From NCBI GenBank assembly GCA_900316355.1, contig ONCQ01000005.1, positions 82,221 through 146,220 of the forward strand: 64,000 nt of DNA, read 5' to 3'. The notes under the pieces were generated by a model that was not told where the DNA came from, searched no databases, and saw only the letters and a list, made by a program, of their open reading frames with translations. Shown in pieces: positions 2,093 to 11,958 of this stretch. The position numbers were made by a program, and so were the translations under genes. Source of the stretch: an uncultured Prevotellaceae bacterium (lineage in GTDB: Bacteria; Bacteroidota; Bacteroidia; Bacteroidales; Bacteroidaceae). How positions within the stretch are numbered: position 1 is the stretch's first letter; each line of letters begins with the position of its first letter.

Positions 2093-5000
2093 TTAGATTT
2101 TCTCGATACGTGCGTTGAGTTGGAAGTCCTCGAAGTCGAGCACAGCGGCGTCGGCGACAGTGTCGACGAGCGTGATGCCGTCGGCCAGCACCTGCGCGGT
2201 GATGTAGCTGCCGAAGGCCTCCACGGCGCGGTCTGTCTGCGCGTTGTGTTCGAGGGTGATGTGTATGCGGTCGGTGATTTCGAAGCCGCTCTCCTTGCGC
2301 AGGTTCTGTATGCGTTTCACCAGCTCGCGGGCGTTGCCCTCGTTGCGCAGCTCGTCGGTGACGGTGATGTCGAGGGCCACGGTGAGTACGCCGTCGTTGG
2401 CCACGGTCCATCCGGGGATGTCCTCGCTGAAGATCTCCACGTCCTCGAGCTCCACGGTGATGGCGTCGCCGGTGGGCAGTGTCAGCGGCAGCTGTCCTGT
2501 CTCGAGCACGGCAATCTGTTCCTGCGTGAGGGCAGTGACGGCGGCGTTGACATCCTTCATCAGCTTGCCGAACTTCTTACCCATCGTGCGGAAATTGCAC
2601 TTCACCTTCTTCGTCAACAGCCCGGCGCCCTCCACGAACTCGAGCTCCTTGACGTTGACCTCGTCGAGGATGAGCTGCTTCACGGCTTCGATGCGCTGCT
2701 GCAGCTCGCGGTCGATGGCGGGAATGGCGATGCGTGCCAGGGGCTGGCGCACGATGATCTGCTCCTTCTTGCGCAGCGAGAGCACCATGGAGGTGATTTC
2801 CTGTGCCAGTGCCATGCGCGACTCCTGTTCCTTGTCGATGAGGGCATCATCGGCCACGGGGAAGGAGGCGAGGTGAACGCTGGAGAGACCCTCTCCCCGC
2901 TCCCCCGTGAGGGGGAGAGCCTCGCTATCGCTCGAAAGCTGCGCGCCAGCCTTCGCCCCTCCCTTACGGGAGGGGTTGGGGGTGGGTCCATGCAAATCCC
3001 TGTAGAGCTGGTCGGCATAGAAGGGGGCGATGGGGGCCATCAGGCGCGCCACGGTCTCCAGACAGGTGTAGAGTGTCTGGTAGGCACTGAGCTTGTCGAT
3101 GCTCATCTCGCCGCCCCAGAAGCGCTTGCGGGAGAGGCGCACGAACCAGTTGGAGACGTTGTCGATGACGAATGCCTGGATGAGGCGTCCGGCGCGCGTG
3201 GGCTCGTAGGCCTCGTAGCTCTGCTCCACCTCGCGGATGAGGGTGTTCAGCGACGAGAGAATCCAGCGGTCCATTTCCGAGCGCTGGCTCATGGGCACTT
3301 CGGGCTCCTCGAAGTGCCAGCCGTCCACGTTGGCATACATCGCCAGGAAGCTGTACGTCTGGTAGAGCTTGCCGAAGAAGGAGCGGGAGACCTCTTGAAC
3401 TCCTGCTTCATCGTATTTGAGGTTATCCCATGGCTGTGAGTTGGTTATCATATACCAGCGTACAGCGTCGGAACCGAATTTCTCAATGTTGTCGAAGGGG
3501 TTGATGGCGTTGCCGAGGCGCTTGGACATCTTCAGTCCGTTCTTGTCCAGCACGAGGCCGTTGCTGATGACAGCCTTGTAGGCGACGCTATCGAAGACCA
3601 TCGTGGCGATGGCGTGGAGCGTGAAGAACCATCCGCGCGTCTGATCCACGCCCTCGGCGATGAAGTCAGCGGGATAGACGATGCGCTTGTCCAGTGCCTC
3701 CTTGTTCTCGAAGGGATAGTGAATCTGAGCGTAGGGCATCGCACCGCTGTCGAACCACACGTCGATGAGGTCCAGCTCGCGCTGCAGTGGCTTGCCGCTC
3801 TCGCCCACGAGGACGATGTCATCCACATAGGGGCGGTGGAGGTCGATGCGGTCGTAGTTCTCCTGCGACATATCGCCGGGCACGAAGCCCTTGTCCTTGA
3901 GCGGGTTCGAGGCCATCACGCCTGCGCGCACGCTCTTCTCTATCTCGTTGTAGAGTTCCTCGATGCTGCCGATGCAGATCTCCTCGCGCGTCTCGCGGTT
4001 GCGCCAGATGGGCAGCGGTGTGCCCCAGTAGCGGCTGCGGCTAAGGTTCCAGTCGTTGAGGTTCTCCAGCCATTTGCCGAAGCGTCCGGAGCCCGTGGAT
4101 TCAGGCTTCCACAGGATGCTCTTGTTCAGCTCCATCATGCGCTCCTTGGCGGCTGTCGAGCGGATGAACCAGCTGTCCAGCGGGTAGTAGAGCACAGGCT
4201 TGTCGGTGCGCCAGCAGTGGGGGTAGTTGTGCACATGCTTCTCAATCTTGAAGGCGGTGCCCTCCTGCTTCATCTCCATGCAGAGGACGATGTTCAGGTC
4301 CTCGGTCTTGGCCAGCGCTTTCTCGTCGAGGCCGGCATACTGCGGGTCGTAGGCGTTCTTGACGAAGTCGCCGGCGTGGTGCCAGTAGCTGTCGTTGACG
4401 CAGGTCGCGACGAAGGCCTCGTCCATGTCGGCTTTCACGAAGTACTTACCCGTGAAGTCCACCATGGGTCGTGTGTCGCCGGCTTTGTCGATGACGAAGA
4501 GCGAGGGGATGCCGGCATCCTTGGCCACCTTGGCATCGTCGGCACCGAACGTGGGCGCGATGTGCACGATGCCCGTACCGTCCTCCGTGGTCACGTAGTC
4601 GCCGGGGATGACGCGGAACGCCTCGGCGCTCTTGTCCACGGCCTTGCCGCCCTCCAGCGCACAGGGCTTCACCCAGGGGAAGAGCTGCTCATAGTGGAGG
4701 CCCACAAGGGTAGCCCCTTCCCAACCTTCCCCAAGGGGCAGGTGTTCTTCGTCCTCTGGGAAATAAGCATTCTTGCGTGATTCAGCTACAATATAGATGG
4801 CTTCTTCTTTGCTATAGGGGTTCTGTCCCTTGACAGCGACATATTTGATTTTCGGGCCTACGCACAAAGCGGTATTCGAAGGCAGTGTCCAAGGCGTGGT
4901 CGTCCAGGCTAAAATATAAACCGGCAATCCCATATCAAACACCTTTACAAGGCTCTCAGGGAATCCCTCCCCCTTGGGGGAGCCGGAGGGGGCCATTACA

Positions 5001-5715: not shown

Positions 5716-6089
5716 ATAATTTATTACTTTTCCTCCCCTCCACCCCATAAATCCCCTGTCGTCCATCTTCCATCTTCCCTCAGCCATCCTACATCAGCCC
5801 TCATCCATCTTACATCATAACCCTTAATGCTTTTTCTCATAACCCTTAAGCCTTTCGCCCGAAACCCTTAGGGGTTATGACTCGAAGGTCATGGTCTTCT
5901 CGTCGTTCCATCGCGACCGAACAATGAATGCACCACGGTCTTCCTACTGGACCACCATGGCGGGACACTCAACGCACGCGGCTTTGATGATTTCTCGTGC
6001 TGTGCGGACTATTTTTGTTAAGAAATATTTAATTTGAGGGGAGGAGGAGAAGAAAATAGAGCGTTAGAGAAAAAAATAGTGCGCAAAAC
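5716..6089. other. Intergenic region with one long hairpin
   Basis: No gene recognised. It holds two CATAACCCTTAA units and an inverted repeat, CATAACCCTTAA (5838-5849) against TTAGGGGTTATG (5868-5879), with one mismatch in 12 bp. This may be a terminator or a small repeat. Short open frames on the plus strand (5890-6030) look like decayed coding sequence but match nothing I know. Confidence 0.4.
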
Positions 6090-6149: not shown

Positions 6150-6497
6150 ATGGACAACATCTATATGCTTGCTGATGTGACCATCCAGAGTCGGATTGGC
6201 GCGCGATTGAGGCAGGCGAGGTTGAAACAGAACGTCACGCAACAGAGCCTTGCGGAGGCTGCGGGCGTGTCGTTGTCATCACTCAAGAAGATTGAGAAAG
6301 GCGAGATAGGTTCTTTTGACTCGCTGCTGCGGCTGCTGCGCACGCTGGGCTTGCTGGACATCCTGCAGCCGCTGGTGGATGAGGAACAGCTGAGCCCTAA
6401 TGAATACTACGAGTTGGTACACGCCGCCCGTGCGAAGTCACGCAAGCGTGCCGCAGGTAAGATTCAACCATCAAACAAGGAGGAATCAACATGGTAG
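6150..6497 (+). CDS. hipB: HipB-type antitoxin (XRE helix-turn-helix)
   Basis: A 115-aa DNA-binding protein with an XRE helix-turn-helix: RLRQARLKQNVTQQSLAEAA, then GVSLSSLKKIEKGE. Antitoxins of this family bind the kinase HipA and repress their own operon. The stop overlaps the hipA start by 7 nt, the usual coupling in hipBA. A second in-frame Met (MLADV) six codons in could be the real start. The palindrome over the promoter fits autorepression. The antitoxin role rests on pairing with the hipA gene. Confidence 0.9.
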   Translation: MDNIYMLADVTIQSRIGARLRQARLKQNVTQQSLAEAAGVSLSSLKKIEKGEIGSFDSLLRLLRTLGLLDILQPLVDEEQLSPNEYYELVHAARAKSRKRAAGKIQPSNKEESTW

Positions 6498-7771
6498 ATG
6501 TAGCCAGAGTGAGTATGTTTGGGATGCCCGTCGGCACGTTCCGATGGGATGCCCAGTATGGCGTTGCCAGATTTGAATACGACGGCAGTTTCGTGGGTCG
6601 CGGCTTGGAACCCTCGCCTCTGATGATGCCTGTGCGCGAAGGACGTATCTATGCTTTTGCGGACTTGGATCGTGGGACTTTCAAAGGGTTGCCGGGCATG
6701 CTGGCTGATTCGCTCCCCGACACCTACGGCCGGGCGCTGTTCGATAAATGGCTGGCACTGACGGGCCGCACGAGCAGTAACCCCATCGAGACCTTGTGTT
6801 TCCTGGGCAACCGATGTATGGGTGCCTTGGAGTTCGAGCCGGCGATAGACAGCGCATACGACCCCAATGCGAAGTTCGAAATCGACTCACTCGTGCAAGT
6901 CGCCAGTGATGCACTGGCGGAGAAGTCGTCCTTTGACGTGAACCTCAACGACGACAGGAAGGCGGCCATCGCTGAGATCCTGCGACTGGGCACCTCGGCA
7001 GGAGGGCAGCGCGCCAAGGCTATCATTGCCTATAACAAAGAAACGGGCGAGGTACGATCCGGGCAGGTGGAGGCACCTGTAGGGTTCGACTACTACCTCA
7101 TCAAGCTGGACGGGGTGTCGGCCACAGCGGGTTTCAGGGAAACGGGTAACTATGGTCGTCTGGAGTATTCGTTCTATCAGTTGGCGAAAGCCTGTGGCAT
7201 AGACATGACGGCGTGTTCGCTGATAGAGGAAAATGGCCGTGCTCATTTCCTCACCAAGCGCTTCGACCGCAAGGAGGACAAGAAGGTACATATGCAGACG
7301 CTCTGCGGTATTGCCCATTACGACTATCGCCTGCATCGCGCCTACGCTTACGAACAGGCTTTCAATGTGATGCGAGCGCTGCGTCTGCCCTATTCAGCAG
7401 CCCAAGAGATGTTCCGCCGGATGGTGTTTAATGTGGTGGTTCGCAACCAAGACGACCACACCAAGAACATCTCCTTCCTCATGGAAGCGGACGGCCGGTG
7501 GCAGCTCTCGCCGGCTTACGATATGGGATATGCCTATAACCCTCAGGGCGGTTGGACAGCCACGCACCAGATGTCCATTAATGGGAAGTTCGATGACATC
7601 ACGCGTCAGGATCTGCTCGCCTTTGCCAGTCAGAACAATATCAAGGAAGCCACATCCATCATCGATGAGATTTGCGAAGCAGCATCTCATTGGACCAAGT
7701 TCGCAGAGGAGTGCGGTGTGCCGCAGGAGATGCAGAACCGCATCGTTCCGAATCTATTGCTTAGCCTGTAG
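6491..7771 (+). CDS. hipA: HipA-type serine/threonine kinase toxin
   Basis: A 426-aa protein with the N-terminal HipA subdomain (GLPGMLADSLPDTYG, about 75-90), a nucleotide-loop region GTSAGGQRAKA near 166, the catalytic loop RNQDDHTKN near 318-326 and the metal-binding YDMGY near 343. E. coli HipA phosphorylates glutamyl-tRNA synthetase and so causes growth arrest; the target here is unknown. All expected catalytic residues are present and the length is typical, so it looks active. Encoded just after hipB with overlapping ends and followed by a strong hairpin (7857-7896). Confidence 0.93.
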   Translation: MVDVARVSMFGMPVGTFRWDAQYGVARFEYDGSFVGRGLEPSPLMMPVREGRIYAFADLDRGTFKGLPGMLADSLPDTYGRALFDKWLALTGRTSSNPIETLCFLGNRCMGALEFEPAIDSAYDPNAKFEIDSLVQVASDALAEKSSFDVNLNDDRKAAIAEILRLGTSAGGQRAKAIIAYNKETGEVRSGQVEAPVGFDYYLIKLDGVSATAGFRETGNYGRLEYSFYQLAKACGIDMTACSLIEENGRAHFLTKRFDRKEDKKVHMQTLCGIAHYDYRLHRAYAYEQAFNVMRALRLPYSAAQEMFRRMVFNVVVRNQDDHTKNISFLMEADGRWQLSPAYDMGYAYNPQGGWTATHQMSINGKFDDITRQDLLAFASQNNIKEATSIIDEICEAASHWTKFAEECGVPQEMQNRIVPNLLLSL

Positions 7772-7856
7772 CCACTCTGTGCTTGCGTAACCCTCATAGG
7801 GCTTTCCGCAAAAATAAATCTGCTCCCCACAAAAAGACACTACTACTCCCTCGCCT

Positions 7857-7896
7857 TACCCTCTATAGTCCCTACGCGCAGACACTATAGAGGGTA
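7857..7896 (+). terminator. Hairpin after hipA
   Basis: TACCCTCTATAGT (7857-7869) and its exact complement ACTATAGAGGGTA (7884-7896) form a 13-bp stem with a 14-nt loop. There is no strong T-run, so it may be an RNA-end hairpin more than a classical terminator. Confidence 0.55.
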
Positions 7897-8023
7897 CGCT
7901 TAGGAACTATAGAGTATAACGCAGTGCGGTGCGAAGGCGTTTGCAGTGCGGTGCGTTGGCCGTTGCACCGCAGTCCTTGACCAGCCATGAAGCGCCATAG
8001 ACACATAGGCACCATCGCACCAC

Positions 8024-8275
8024 AATTGGATACAGAATACAGAATACAGTTTTTTAGGCGCCACCTTTCTTGTACTGAAAAAGTTGACTCCCTGCTGCGC
8101 ACAGCGCACAGTTTTCTCAGGAGCAATGAAAAAGGGGACCGTGAATTTTTACTATTATATATATTATATAATTTTATTATATAATATATATAATAGTAAT
8201 TTCTATTTACCTATTTTCAGGTTGTCTTTATACCCCTGCCCCTAAAAAACTGTATTCTGTATTCTGTATCCAATT
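8024..8275. mobile_element. MITE-like element, copy A (252 bp)
   Basis: Ends are perfect inverted repeats of 35 bp (AATTGGATACAG, two more ACAGAAT-type units, then GTTTTTTAGG) at 8024-8058 and 8241-8275. The centre holds an AT palindrome with 23-bp perfect arms (8149-8171, 8177-8199) and a TTTTA loop. No gene inside. Copy B at 60659-60858 shares the ends and the plan but not the internal sequence. No clear target duplication is visible. Confidence 0.8.
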
Positions 8276-8352: not shown

Positions 8353-9294
8353 TCAAATCTCGTCTTTCTCCTCGTACAGGCAGAGGGCATTGTAGTGCTC
8401 ACGGCTCACTTCTTTGGCCAGCCATTGGGGCGAAAGGACCTGGGCATGGTCGCCTAAGCTGACGAGATGACGGATGAAATCGGGTGTCGGCCGCACAAAG
8501 AGCTCGAAGTCCGTGTAGTCTCCGCCACAGGCAATCTCCTGCTGGCTGTGGTGCAGCGGCAGGTCAGCCAGATAGAACTGCTCGTAGTCGTAAGCCCTGA
8601 TGACAACCCTCTCTGGTTGGGTGTCGTCATTGACCAGCACACCATAGCACTCGCTGAAGTACGCCTCGGCGTCGAAGTCCGGATCTATCTTGAATTTGAT
8701 GTCCGTCAGCGACATTTCCAGGATGCGGTCGAAGGCGAACATCCCGAAGTAATCGATGTCCTCTCCCTCCTCCATCTTTCGATAGAAATGCCCCAGCACA
8801 TACCATCGCTGGCGGAACATCTTCAGGCAGTACGGCTCGAAGTTCAGGTCGCGAGGCTCCTCATCGCCATACTTGCGGTACTTGATGGCTATACGGACGC
8901 TACGTTTCATCGCCTCTATCTCCATAGGCAGATAGTCGCCCTCGTAGGGCACCGACTCCAGCAGTATCCGCTTCTGCAGCGACAAGCTCTCGCTGACGAC
9001 GCTGTTCACCGACAGCGTGGACAGCATCCATTTCTGCACGCTGTCCTCACGCAGCACGTTCGCGTTGGCGATATAGTATTTGAAGCCATCCTGACGGTCG
9101 CAGTCGATGATGATTCCGAAGATGTCCTCGATGGCGTCCTTGTGTCGGTTGAAGGTCGCCCGTGCCAGCTCAACGCCCTCGCTGAGCTCCGTCTCCAGCC
9201 AGCGCTCGTTGATCTCCGCAAACGTAATCCTCTTGGCCTTGCGAATCGTATTCACCAGCCATATATACTCCCTGAACTTAGCAGATGTCTTCAT
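8353..9294 (-). CDS. WYL-domain transcriptional regulator
   Basis: A 313-aa protein with an N-terminal winged-helix-like part (EYIWLVNTIRKAKRITFAEI and RATFNRHKDAIEDIFGI), a WYL-type domain carrying QRWYVLGHFYR near residue 155, and the C-terminal WCX-like extension ending RHLVSLGDHAQVLSPQWLAKE. WYL proteins often regulate defence and DNA-repair operons in response to nucleic-acid or nucleotide ligands. It starts 6 nt after the radical SAM gene, so it is the last gene of the operon from 11278. I infer that it controls that operon, possibly through the repeated dyad at 11287-11309 and 11921-11943. Confidence 0.85.
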   Translation of the reverse strand: MKTSAKFREYIWLVNTIRKAKRITFAEINERWLETELSEGVELARATFNRHKDAIEDIFGIIIDCDRQDGFKYYIANANVLREDSVQKWMLSTLSVNSVVSESLSLQKRILLESVPYEGDYLPMEIEAMKRSVRIAIKYRKYGDEEPRDLNFEPYCLKMFRQRWYVLGHFYRKMEEGEDIDYFGMFAFDRILEMSLTDIKFKIDPDFDAEAYFSECYGVLVNDDTQPERVVIRAYDYEQFYLADLPLHHSQQEIACGGDYTDFELFVRPTPDFIRHLVSLGDHAQVLSPQWLAKEVSREHYNALCLYEEKDEI

Positions 9295-9300
9295 AGTTAT

Positions 9301-10050
9301 TCATGTTTGATTATCGCATGTTGTCCATTTTACCCTGTCTAACGCATCCACCAACCCTTGATAGTCGAGTGATGCCAAGGCTTCCTTATTCGGCGCGAAG
9401 CTACAGGAGTTCACCTTCTTGTCCCAGGACACAGAGCAGAAGTTTGTGGGACGCTGGCATTTCAGCAGACATGAAGGACTTTGAAAAAGCTTCCCGTCTG
9501 CCACCGATGCCAGTTGTTTCGGCGAAGGCGTATTGGAGAAGCGCTGTGGAACAAGAATGATCTGGTCGCTCCTGAGGAAGCTCATCATCCGTTGATAAAC
9601 GCTCCTTGCAGCTTCTACTTTATCAGCCCCCACCAGCAGGTTGACGCCAGGCTTAATATTCAGCTTTTCTATAGCTTGCAGCTGTCTTTCCACTCTTGCC
9701 ACTTCCGCCTCATTGTCTGGCCGATGGATGGTGAGGTGAATCTTGTCTGGCTTATGCTTACCCAATTGTACCCATGTTAACGTGTCTTCCAGCGGTAATC
9801 CATTGGAGGTAATCGACAGATAGCACAACGGATACAGCGCCTCTATCACCTCGAAGATGCCCTCATACTCAAACGGCTCTCCGCCGCCCAACGACACAGC
9901 CTTCACTCCATGCATAATGCAGTCGGAGGCGAAATCTATCACCTCCTGCGGCTTCCACATCGTATTGCCCTCTCGTGTGCTATGGTTATAGCAGAACGAG
10001 CATTGCTTGGAGCAATAGTTCGACAGGTCTAAGGACAGTAACTCTATCAT
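9301..10050 (-). CDS. Radical SAM protein with partial twitch-like C-terminus
   Basis: Counted from the ATG at 10050, the CxxxCxxC cluster is Cys13, Cys17 and Cys20 (CSKQCSFC), and the SAM-binding GGGEP is at 55-59. The C-terminal CSVSWDKKVNSC resembles the Cys pair of twitch/SPASM domains, which hold a second iron-sulphur cluster. An upstream ATG at 10077 gives 258 aa, but the ATG at 10050 makes a classical ATGA overlap with the preceding stop, so I prefer it. The substrate is not evident. Neighbours are an unknown 309-aa protein and tandem tRNA-like RNAs upstream and a WYL regulator downstream; action on the RNA or on the 309-aa protein is speculation. Confidence 0.88.
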   Translation of the reverse strand: MIELLSLDLSNYCSKQCSFCYNHSTREGNTMWKPQEVIDFASDCIMHGVKAVSLGGGEPFEYEGIFEVIEALYPLCYLSITSNGLPLEDTLTWVQLGKHKPDKIHLTIHRPDNEAEVARVERQLQAIEKLNIKPGVNLLVGADKVEAARSVYQRMMSFLRSDQIILVPQRFSNTPSPKQLASVADGKLFQSPSCLLKCQRPTNFCSVSWDKKVNSCSFAPNKEALASLDYQGLVDALDRVKWTTCDNQT

Positions 10051-10976
10051 TTCCTTAAATCTCGATGTTTGTCCCATTCATATTCTTCAGCCTTCCCCTC
10101 TGCAATCAATTTATCCATTGATTCCTTGTTAATGATTGCTCTGGTCTTTTCATTATAATACATCAGGCTGTCATCCGAAGTAGCAAGTTCACTCCATATT
10201 TGACCATCATAGACGTATTCCATCGTGCATTGAATATCTACAGGGAGGAACTCTGCAAGTTGTATTTTCTCCCTGTCTTTGAACTTAACCGGTAGGCTTG
10301 TTATCTTATCCTGTATTTCCTTAGGCAGCTGCTCCTTTCTAAATGGGTGAGCAGGATTGGATATGCGAACAGCAGGCTCATAATTGGGATTATAGTCCTG
10401 ATAATAGATAAATATTGGGAATCTATTATTCTCTGCTTCCTGAATCATTCTACCTTGTTCATCCTCCCGATAATTAGAATAATGCGGTGCTCTTTGTTTG
10501 GAGATAATCACATGATTCTCTTCAAGTAACTCTACGCCTTTCCTGTTAAAGGCAAGGTTTATGTAAAACAAGCCATCCTTTCTTGACAGGCAAACAGGAT
10601 CATATAAATTGTCTAAATCACAAGCCTTTTTAAATATATCTAGCTTTGACATATCTATCCGTACAACCACATTGTACCAATGTCGATTGTACCAATCACC
10701 ATGTTCCCACTCTTTCCACTTATCAGGATCTTTAATTGGTCCCAACAAGCTATTAATCTGCTCTAAGTCCAACCTTAAATCTTTAAAGGCATCTTCCCCT
10801 TTTTGTGAGAACAAATCCCAGAAAACATCATCCACATTCCATTCTTCATGGCAGCCCTCTGTTGGCACAGGACCATTGTCGTCAATATCGAATATGCCGA
10901 CATTGCCGTCTTCATCTACGCAGTACCACGCCGTTGACATGGAATGCGTCGCTGGGTATTCTTTATCTGTCATCAT
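10047..10976 (-). CDS. Unknown 309-aa protein, radical SAM partner
   Basis: Not recognised. The N-terminus STAWYCVDEDGNVGIFDI looks like a small beta-rich domain; the rest is mixed and charged (KWKEWEHGDWYNRHWYNVVV) with no signal peptide or membrane helix, so it is probably cytoplasmic. The stop overlaps the radical SAM start by 4 nt (ATGA), so the two are translationally coupled. The DNA is clearly more AT-rich than ileS, the bat genes or the ribosomal genes, which suggests horizontal transfer. Upstream lie two tRNA-like RNAs and the promoter at 11271-11310. Two Met codons start the frame; either may be used. Confidence 0.75.
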   Translation of the reverse strand: MMTDKEYPATHSMSTAWYCVDEDGNVGIFDIDDNGPVPTEGCHEEWNVDDVFWDLFSQKGEDAFKDLRLDLEQINSLLGPIKDPDKWKEWEHGDWYNRHWYNVVVRIDMSKLDIFKKACDLDNLYDPVCLSRKDGLFYINLAFNRKGVELLEENHVIISKQRAPHYSNYREDEQGRMIQEAENNRFPIFIYYQDYNPNYEPAVRISNPAHPFRKEQLPKEIQDKITSLPVKFKDREKIQLAEFLPVDIQCTMEYVYDGQIWSELATSDDSLMYYNEKTRAIINKESMDKLIAEGKAEEYEWDKHRDLRK

Positions 10977-11028
10977 AGGCTTCTATATCAAAAGGCTTTC
11001 ATTCCGCCCATTAGTTTTTTATTTAAAA

Positions 11029-11112
11029 GGCTGGCAAGCGGTAGGACTCGAACCTGCTCTCTTGCGGTTAGGCAATCCACCGTGTCCAACATCGTGGTTC
11101 TACTTGCCAGTC
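11029..11112 (-). ncRNA. tRNA-like RNA 2 (84 nt)
   Basis: Read leftward, the ends GACTGGCAAG and CTTGCCAGCC pair over 10 positions with one mismatch. Near the 3' side is a canonical T-loop, GTTCGAGTC, with an imperfect stem. The core shares CAAGTAGAACC near the 5' end and CCGCTTG near the 3' end with RNA 1. It does not fold into a normal D arm or anticodon arm by eye. It is followed by CCTTTTAAA, as is RNA 1. Probably transcribed with the 309-aa gene, 53 nt downstream. Confidence 0.6.
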
Positions 11113-11126
11113 TCATTTCTTTAAAA

Positions 11127-11214
11127 GGATGATACAAGCGGCAGATTCGAACTGCTACCCATACCTTTCGGCAGCCGCATTTACCATACATCAGCGGTTC
11201 TACTTGCATCATCC
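11127..11214 (-). ncRNA. tRNA-like RNA 1 (88 nt)
   Basis: Read leftward, GGATGATGCAAG pairs with CTTGTATCATCC over 12 positions (one G-U). Inside is a T-loop GTTCGAATC closed by GCAG/CTGC, a small hairpin TGCCGAAAGGTA with a GNRA loop, and CCGC/GCGG about 15 nt apart like a D arm. Shares its core with RNA 2, 14 nt downstream. The long end helix and missing anticodon arm argue against an ordinary tRNA. The promoter lies at 11271-11310. Confidence 0.6.
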
Positions 11215-11270
11215 AAACTTGTCAAAAGTGCAGCTTGAAGTCATCGCACCTTTTTTGATCTTTGACGCTG

Positions 11271-11323
11271 CAAAAGTAGCGGTATATTGTCTCAAATCGT
11301 GGGACATGTTTGAAAAAAGTTCA
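11271..11323 (-). promoter_or_regulatory. Promoter/operator, copy 1, for the tRNA-like/radical SAM operon
   Basis: Minus-strand -7 box TACTTTTG (11271-11278). Upstream is a block nearly identical to 11906-11958, with the imperfect dyad ATTGTC...GGGACA at 11287-11309 and a TTTG only 14 bp from the -7 box. The short spacing suggests use of an activator in place of a normal -33 box. Confidence 0.65.
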
Positions 11324-11332
11324 TTGATGACT

Positions 11333-11857
11333 TCATTTCAAATCCGTTGCCAGGACATCGCCGAGGGCGAAGTAGTAGAAGAGAGGGACTTCGTCGGAAT
11401 GGGACTGCTCCAACTCTGCTAACAGCTCGTCGAACTCATGGCAGTCGTAGGTTTGTTGCAGGTACTCCACATTCTGGCGCGTCACGCCTATCAGCTGATT
11501 CTCCTTGCACTCCACATCCAGGAACCAGGACTTGTTATAGTCGTGGAAGTGAATCTTCCGCACAGGGCGCGTGGAGCACATGAACTCATCCATCGCTTCC
11601 ACGTCCATTCCCGGCTCATCGCGATGCTCCGTCATCCACGCATCCACCTTCTTGTCTATCAGGCGGCTGTGGTAATGCTGCGACCCTTGGCGCACCTCAA
11701 CCCTCTTCTCTCCGCGGAGAATCTCCTCGGCGAACTCGCGCCGCATGATCAGGTCCAACACCTGAACGGGCTCGCACTTAGGTGCATTGTACTTCTTCAT
11801 GAACTCATCCATAGCAGCAAAGTACTGCTCGTCGGTCATTTCTGCAAACATACTCAT
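11333..11857 (-). CDS. ASCH-domain protein
   Basis: A 174-aa protein whose [20 protein letters not shown] region with VEVR matches the ASCH signature GxKxxExR (Gly49 to Arg56). ASCH domains have a PUA-like fold and bind RNA; some members are ribonucleases or amidohydrolases. The C-terminal part, [12 protein letters not shown], completes the barrel. The gene stands alone between the GIY-YIG nuclease gene and the tRNA-like RNAs, but its promoter region is a near copy of theirs (11906-11958 against 11271-11323), so the two units are probably co-regulated. Action on the tRNA-like RNAs would be a natural guess but is not shown. Start is MSMFAE or the Met two codons later. Confidence 0.8.
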
Positions 11858-11905: not shown

Positions 11906-11958
11906 CGAAGGTAGCAGTACATTGTCTCAAATCGTGGGACAATGTTGAAAAAAGTGAC
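11906..11958 (-). promoter_or_regulatory. Promoter/operator, copy 2, for the ASCH gene
   Basis: Minus-strand -7 box TACCTTCG (11906-11913), then the dyad ATTGTC...GGGACAAT (11921-11943) and the TTGAAAAAAGT tract. Nearly the same sequence and spacing as 11271-11323. Confidence 0.65.

Follow-up and report, generated by a model that had tools for sequence, protein, structure and literature searches.

The bacterial Y RNA YrlA is a tRNA-like, non-decoding RNA encoded in a stress operon (rsr-yrlBA-rtcBA) with a ligand-sensing regulator, and it has been suggested that it may competitively inhibit an anticodon nuclease (PMC7790460). A group of defense genes is controlled by regulators with WYL and WCX domains through shared operators, next to restriction-type neighbors, and WYL is predicted to respond to a ligand linked to infection or stress (PMC4012209). 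The ASCH protein ZmASCH is described as a single-stranded RNA nuclease (PMC5615036), and stand-alone ASCH genes have been reported alongside type I restriction systems (PMC7641849). In type III (ToxIN-like) toxin-antitoxin systems, repeated structured RNAs lie ahead of a protein gene. Likenesses to each of these, including an ASCH-like gene beside restriction genes, meet in a locus of an uncultured Prevotellaceae bacterium (assembly GCA_900316355.1, contig ONCQ01000005.1, positions 82,221 to 146,220), which we analyzed as a stretch of 64,000 nt; this whole stretch is the window, and all window coordinates count from its first letter. We found a pair of homologous tRNA-like RNAs, here called R1 and R2, together with a WYL regulator and its putative operator. 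The RNA family and the architecture of the cassette are established with high confidence; the mechanism proposed for them is held with moderate to low confidence.

The tRNA-like RNA pair and its family

On the minus strand the window carries, in order, a palindrome, the box TACTTTTG, which we take to be a -7 box of the Bacteroidetes type, R2, R1, an open reading frame (ORF) for a protein of 309 amino acids (aa), a radical SAM ORF and the WYL gene (Table 1). R1 and R2 are a real pair of homologous RNAs, beyond chance. Their mean column identity is 78% over 114 columns including flanks, and both have a long closing stem and D- and T-arms of the tRNA type, together with a third arm that is too small for decoding. 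A covariance model trained on R2, the RNA of locus L026 and the first RNA of locus L099, with R1 excluded, recovered R1 with an E value of 2.7e-9 and, likewise untrained, the second RNA of L099 with an E value of 5.6e-11. Together with the covariation, these results confirm the two homologous tRNA-like RNAs claimed in a note made earlier from the letters of this DNA (the original prediction).

The fold was tested on 76 matches, 65 of them distinct, that were fitted to the model and compared with 500 shuffles. Paired cells amounted to 90.8% (81.9% in the shuffles, with 0 of 500 as high), and 19 of the 22 pairs had changed on both sides, compared with 9.8 in the shuffles; slid versions of the fold paired 31-54% of cells. 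By stem, pairing was 91.5% in the closing stem, 98.4% in the D-stem and 99.6% in the T-stem. These same three stems were recovered by RNAalifold from alignments not fitted to the fold, with 16 pairs (9 compensated) from 5 RNAs and 20 pairs (15 compensated) from 14 RNAs. By eye the third arm varies, with loops of 4-6 nt; tetraloops and triloops are frequent, and a loop of seven bases like that of an anticodon arm is absent. As a single sequence, R1 folds fairly well (z score -2.73, equaled by 2 of 200 shuffles). The first L099 RNA takes a cloverleaf of four stems at minimum energy (z -3.15, 0 of 200), and the second L099 RNA reaches a z of -5.21.

A D-arm and a T-arm with the loop TTCRANY are present in the family. 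An ordinary tRNA was nevertheless rejected: ARAGORN found no tRNA genes in the window or in five other loci (L114, L099, L220, L126 and L142), and the seven-base anticodon loop is missing. Rfam 15 gave no match in the window at gathering scores, none up to E = 1 within 10950-11340, and none in L126, L142 and L190, and in L026 its matches were sub-threshold only. The family seems to be undescribed: it is absent from Rfam 15, and no paper on it was found among the open-license papers searched, a coverage outside which subscription journals and most preprints fall.

Several searches addressed how widely the family occurs. An early short-pattern scan of viral contigs returned 40 stretches, among which by eye L026 alone holds the RNA, and the same motif hit 7 of 150 genomes, with the RNA seen only at the two sites of the window's own genome. 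A scan of WYL loci yielded L094/L099, with two more RNA copies. In 249 relatives the model search matched 11 genomes at E ≤ 0.01, which is a lower bound because G170, not listed there, holds the RNA. An exact DNA pattern gave 71 stretches in genome contigs, 60 of them named as Prevotella, Prevotellaceae or Xylanibacter, 10 as Bacteroidales or Bacteroidaceae and 1 as Saprospiraceae. Sixty-four of these were run against the model and 61 matched at E ≤ 0.1, leaving L128, L141 and L171 (the Saprospiraceae stretch) without a match; the other seven were taken as identical to L114 and L116-L121, all of which match. L195 is likewise without a model match. At the level of the order, 2 of 393 genomes, including the window's own, matched at E ≤ 0.001 under strict filters. 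Weak matches were seen in L122 and L123 (E values 0.003 and 0.006), L115 is a divergent copy, and the leader RNA of L220, which matches neither model, is taken as a reduced form. Judged by these sequence matches, the RNA family is widespread in Prevotella, many of them from the rumen. In L122 (7377-7552) a tRNA-His gene is directly followed by the weak family member, which has a very short third arm, and this arrangement is possibly how such RNAs arise.

Four loci make up a pair class, namely the window, L114, L099 and L026, the last with one RNA copy within a row of other structured modules. A solitary class of 67 loci is left after removal of the pair class, L115 and L122; among the strains with a solitary RNA are P. 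ruminicola KHT3 (L149) and P. communis E15-14 (L142). In L026 (10540-11080, minus strand) one of the modules around the RNA has a sub-threshold match to tRNA-Sec (20 bits, gathering score 47), and the same region holds a repeated element, TTAGACAAACA..ATATCGC. L114 has two hairpins ahead of its RNA pair (6920-7010, minus strand), with the common core GCCCCGTTTG.TAACGGCAAGC, which is one base shorter in the first.

Operator, WYL regulator and exchangeable effector

The regulator matches WYL in Pfam with an E value of 9e-9, and its WYL (35.7 bits) and WCX (33 bits) scores are both above the cut-offs. The putative operator, TGTCTCAAATCGTGGGACA, stands in exact copies ahead of the RNA leader and of the ASCH-like gene, and again in L114; in the whole genome its pattern within one mismatch has two further, imperfect sites. 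The -7 box lies exactly 9 nt downstream in 8 of 9 operator sites (20 loci, the operator-bearing ones being related by descent), and the ninth is a symmetric site in reverse reading. Outside the pair class, with L115 and L122 counted, 56 of 69 loci have a promoter of the form TAnnTTTG with a TTG 19-21 nt ahead, and no such box was found in the other 13. The operator occupies the position that the TTG at -33 has in the solitary promoters, which suggests that the WYL protein activates at its operator. In L026 a different palindrome, TGTTCGC...GAACA (by eye), precedes both the RNA row and the WYL gene, so that regulator and operator seem to change together.

The sister locus L114 keeps the operator, the RNA pair and the WYL gene, with an unrelated 272-aa gene between them. 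Its leader is 81% identical to that of the window over 10991-11215 and its WYL gene 94% identical in DNA and 98% in protein (307 of 313 residues), while the two effector genes are dissimilar. Because L114 retains all three elements around an unrelated gene, this comparison identifies operator, RNAs and WYL regulator as the core, and the effector as exchangeable. The 272-aa protein belongs to no Pfam family and occurs in 4 of 249 genomes and in none of the plasmids or viral contigs; a relative at 64-65% stands behind the same operator type in L220/G177, and weak relatives in L234 and L235 have other genes in front. In L218, L219 and L220 the same operator type precedes genes of about 508 aa that by eye are like a gene of 527 aa in L114; the latter matches HSDR_N_2 below threshold (16.8 bits, cut-off 25).

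In the window the effector position is filled by the 309-aa and radical SAM genes. The former has a guanine plus cytosine (GC) content of 39.7%, compared with 53.8% for the window, and its product has no match in Pfam, NCBIfam, PADLOC or PHROGs, in agreement with the original prediction of an AT-rich ORF of no known family. It was found in its own genome only (1 of 150 relatives) and in none of the genome, viral, phage and plasmid collections, for two of which the peptide-pattern scans reach close relatives only. A single-sequence structure model had a mean predicted local distance difference test (pLDDT) score of 41 and was not used. The radical SAM protein has a Pfam E value of 9e-11, and its relatives are partial and at superfamily level, the best outside its own genome having an E value of 1.6e-9 over 90 residues; the best family matches, to MoaA and peptide maturases, fall far under the cut-offs. 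A prokaryotic viperin was rejected (NCBIfam viperin 25.6 bits, cut-off 180); the match to PADLOC pVip has an E value of 4.7e-8 and no curated cut-off. The predicted ATGA coupling of the two genes holds for an internal ATG at 10050, while the radical SAM ORF, read from its first ATG, shares 31 nt with the 309-aa gene; the start of the WYL gene 6 nt past the radical SAM stop was as predicted.

The original prediction had joined RNAs, 309-aa protein, radical SAM enzyme and WYL regulator in one four-part system. This unit does not hold, since the 309-aa gene was found in no other genome searched and L114 has a different effector, and a dedicated system of 309-aa protein, radical SAM enzyme and RNAs was rejected because no second copy was found in the 150 relatives or the collections. 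The prediction was to be refuted if the two genes occurred widely without the RNAs; the converse was seen, RNAs without the 309-aa and radical SAM genes. We infer that these two genes are the effector of this copy and not dedicated partners of the RNAs.

Table 1. Features of the locus in the window
Feature	Position	Strand	Remarks
19-bp palindromic operator, probable WYL site, preceding the RNA leader	11288-11306		Putative site; exact copies also at 11923-11941 and in L114
TACTTTTG, -7 box of the leader promoter	11271-11278	minus	TAnnTTTG type
Leader hairpin 5' of R2	11221-11266	minus	Not kept in L114 (alignment)
R2, tRNA-like RNA	11127-11214	minus	Closing stem, D-arm, short third arm, T-arm
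R1, tRNA-like RNA	11028-11113	minus	Homolog of R2
309-aa protein, exchangeable effector	10047-10976	minus	Family without known match; 39.7% GC
Radical SAM protein	9301-10077	minus	CxxxCxxC; possible start 10050
WYL regulator with WCX domain	8353-9294	minus	313 aa
ASCH-like protein, candidate RNA partner	11333-11857	minus	Pfam ASCH below cut-off; PHROG 625, E 1.6e-4
Second exact operator copy, preceding the ASCH-like gene	11923-11941		

Past the ASCH-like gene lies a neighboring operon with a T5orf172 gene, a helicase and an MmeI-like type IIG restriction enzyme, which bears out the predicted restriction-like operon and supports a defense-type neighborhood. On the other side, a long AT-only palindrome (8150-8198) separates the WYL gene from the upstream operon, and a small helix-turn-helix ORF and a 426-aa ORF (6150-7771) look like a HipBA-type pair. 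Window positions 5812-5977 and 7784-7914 are 81-93% identical to L114 DNA just 3' of its WYL gene (4338-4523 and 4718-4847), and these stretches may be borders of a mobile unit or repeats belonging to it.

Candidate partners and proposed function

ASCH-like genes lie directly upstream of the RNAs in the window and in L099. The original prediction had placed an ASCH gene under the same operator as the RNAs; the exact 19-bp copy upholds the shared operator, and the ASCH assignment itself stays below the Pfam cut-off of 21.2 bits (19.1 bits in the window, 15.1 bits in L094). The window and L099 proteins share PHROG 625 and are 18% identical over the aligned part (E value 0.026). In L099, which adjoins a type I restriction system, the RNA pair lies a few bases past the ASCH stop, at the end of the ASCH transcript and opposite a convergent WYL gene, so that no gene is left for these RNAs to regulate in cis. 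L220 has an ASCH homolog in two pieces beside its WYL gene. With the identical operator in front of it, the ASCH protein is a likelier partner of the RNAs than the radical SAM enzyme.

The reading that we prefer, although we give it somewhat less than an even chance, is that of a WYL-switched, defense-type cassette with RNAs that imitate tRNA and work in trans, probably as bait or inhibitor; the cassette would be switchable and is probably anti-phage. Stress or infection would make a ligand for the WYL protein, which would act at the operator, as an activator judging by the spacing, and induce RNAs, effector genes and ASCH gene in concert. As mimics of tRNA, the RNAs would then bind in trans to an RNA-targeting protein, for instance the ASCH protein or a tRNA nuclease induced by infection, and restrain it or serve it as bait. 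All 4 pair-class loci have a WYL gene within 3.5 kb, compared with 2 of 67 solitary loci; since the window was the starting point and L099 was obtained through a search for WYL genes, only L114 and L026 are unbiased, and for these the comparison is 2 of 2 with 2 of 67 (Fisher's test, approximately 0.003). WYL relatives as such are common, being found in 76 of 139 genomes of the genus at E ≤ 1e-30.

A number of observations speak against this reading. The pair class comprises just four loci, of which the window and L099 are not free of selection for WYL, and for 65 of the 67 solitary RNAs no WYL gene of the cluster lies close by. No convincing RNA was found at the 16 loci with the nearest WYL relatives (top score 13.9 bits, E value 0.21), so the RNAs are not required by the regulator, and no ASCH gene is present in the examined stretches of L114 and L026. 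Just 58.1% and 49.1% of cells pair in the third arm, which is therefore not one uniform, conserved helix. R2 folds weakly as a single sequence (z -0.83, 45 of 200 shuffles as good) and two solitary RNAs unremarkably (z -1.33 and -1.28); with the single-sequence folding weak for R2 and fair for R1, the case for the RNAs rests on comparison. An extended form of the proposal, which must be called speculative, is that anticodon-less tRNA mimics define an exchangeable-effector immune module of Prevotella, in which they would bait phage or host enzymes that cut tRNA or RNA, their occupation or cleavage would be read through the WYL protein and through released ASCH or nuclease partners, and the effector slot would be refilled.

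In the window and L114 the pair sits between promoter and effector gene with CCTTTT after each closing stem, and in L026 such modules form a whole row, so the RNAs could instead form a cis leader whose closing stems and U-runs act as terminators, attenuators or stability elements for the effector mRNA. We find this doubtful, as the family is solitary with its own promoter at most of the 67 loci, no gene follows the pair in L099, a terminator scan gave no minus-strand site at this leader, and the leader is kept while the effector changes.

The solitary RNAs have a frequent neighbor of their own. A single family of proteins of about 150 aa is encoded convergently with 29 of the 67; the stop usually falls within 50 nt of the RNA end, for example in L164 (6200-6652) and in 28 further loci. 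Among 139 genomes of the genus, 4 encode the protein, at 5 places in all (3 partial), and an RNA adjoins the gene at each of the 5. Its predicted model is confident (pLDDT 89.9) and is similar to an uncharacterized phage protein in a viral library (E value 4.4e-7) and, more weakly, to domains of phage proteins named nuclease (E values 2e-3 and 3.7e-3). These data could reflect an RNA-protein toxin-antitoxin system, in which solitary RNAs would neutralize the 150-aa protein as a possible phage-type nuclease, and pair-class RNAs their ASCH or effector protein. We regard this as unlikely. The model has no match among solved structures at E ≤ 0.001 and the protein no meaningful Pfam family, and an RNA antitoxin usually precedes its toxin gene, whereas here the genes are convergent. 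Moreover, the gene was not seen beside 38 of the 67 solitary RNAs (7 of the 67 have less than 600 nt of downstream sequence to show one), the partial copies are 3 of the 5, and the protein was not found in the window.

A sensor role, in which the RNAs or fragments made by a tRNA nuclease would be the ligand of the WYL protein, would suit the presence of a WYL gene at every pair-class locus (4 of 4) and has a parallel in RtcR, which is activated by tRNA fragments and whose operon also encodes tRNA-like Y RNAs (PMC7790460). We consider it quite unlikely, since close WYL relatives occur without the RNAs and YrlA fragments were reported as undetected in that study (PMC7790460).

The idea of the original prediction, in which the RNAs would be modified by the radical SAM enzyme in partnership with the 309-aa protein, is not supported and in our view highly improbable. 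Some radical SAM enzymes do modify RNA, and the gene shares a predicted transcript with R1 and R2, but many genomes have the RNAs without these two genes, L114 has another gene in their place, and the enzyme's matches remain at superfamily level, with MoaA and peptide maturases far under the cut-offs. That the RNAs are functionless, decayed tRNA genes or debris of mobile elements, as the copy behind tRNA-His in L122 and the repeats flanking some copies might indicate, is scarcely credible given the compensatory changes in three stems and the conserved promoters.

Comparison with described systems

The RNAs form a structured family with a tRNA elbow and no decoding arm, present in many rumen Prevotella and absent from Rfam 15. 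RNAs of this kind could naturally inhibit, bait or sense enzymes that act on tRNA, as has been proposed for YrlA (PMC7790460), and their two tight linkages, with the WYL cassette and with the convergent 150-aa protein, open the question to direct testing. Identity with YrlA was rejected because no Ro60/TROVE gene was found in any of 10 genomes or records searched (genomes 75-92% complete and one virus fragment; one control genome was positive) and there is no Rfam match. The present family thus differs from YrlA in lacking both Ro60/TROVE and an Rfam match, in its WYL regulator in place of RtcR and in its exchangeable effector. No toxin of a known type III family was found behind the RNA repeats, the 309-aa and 272-aa proteins matching no Pfam family, and, unlike in type III toxin-antitoxin systems, the effector varies while the RNA stays and the RNA also occurs alone. 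Compared with the WYL-regulated defense genes, the regulated leader here contains tRNA-like structured RNAs, and compared with known ASCH systems, the ASCH-like gene is here coupled to a tRNA-like RNA pair and a WYL operator.

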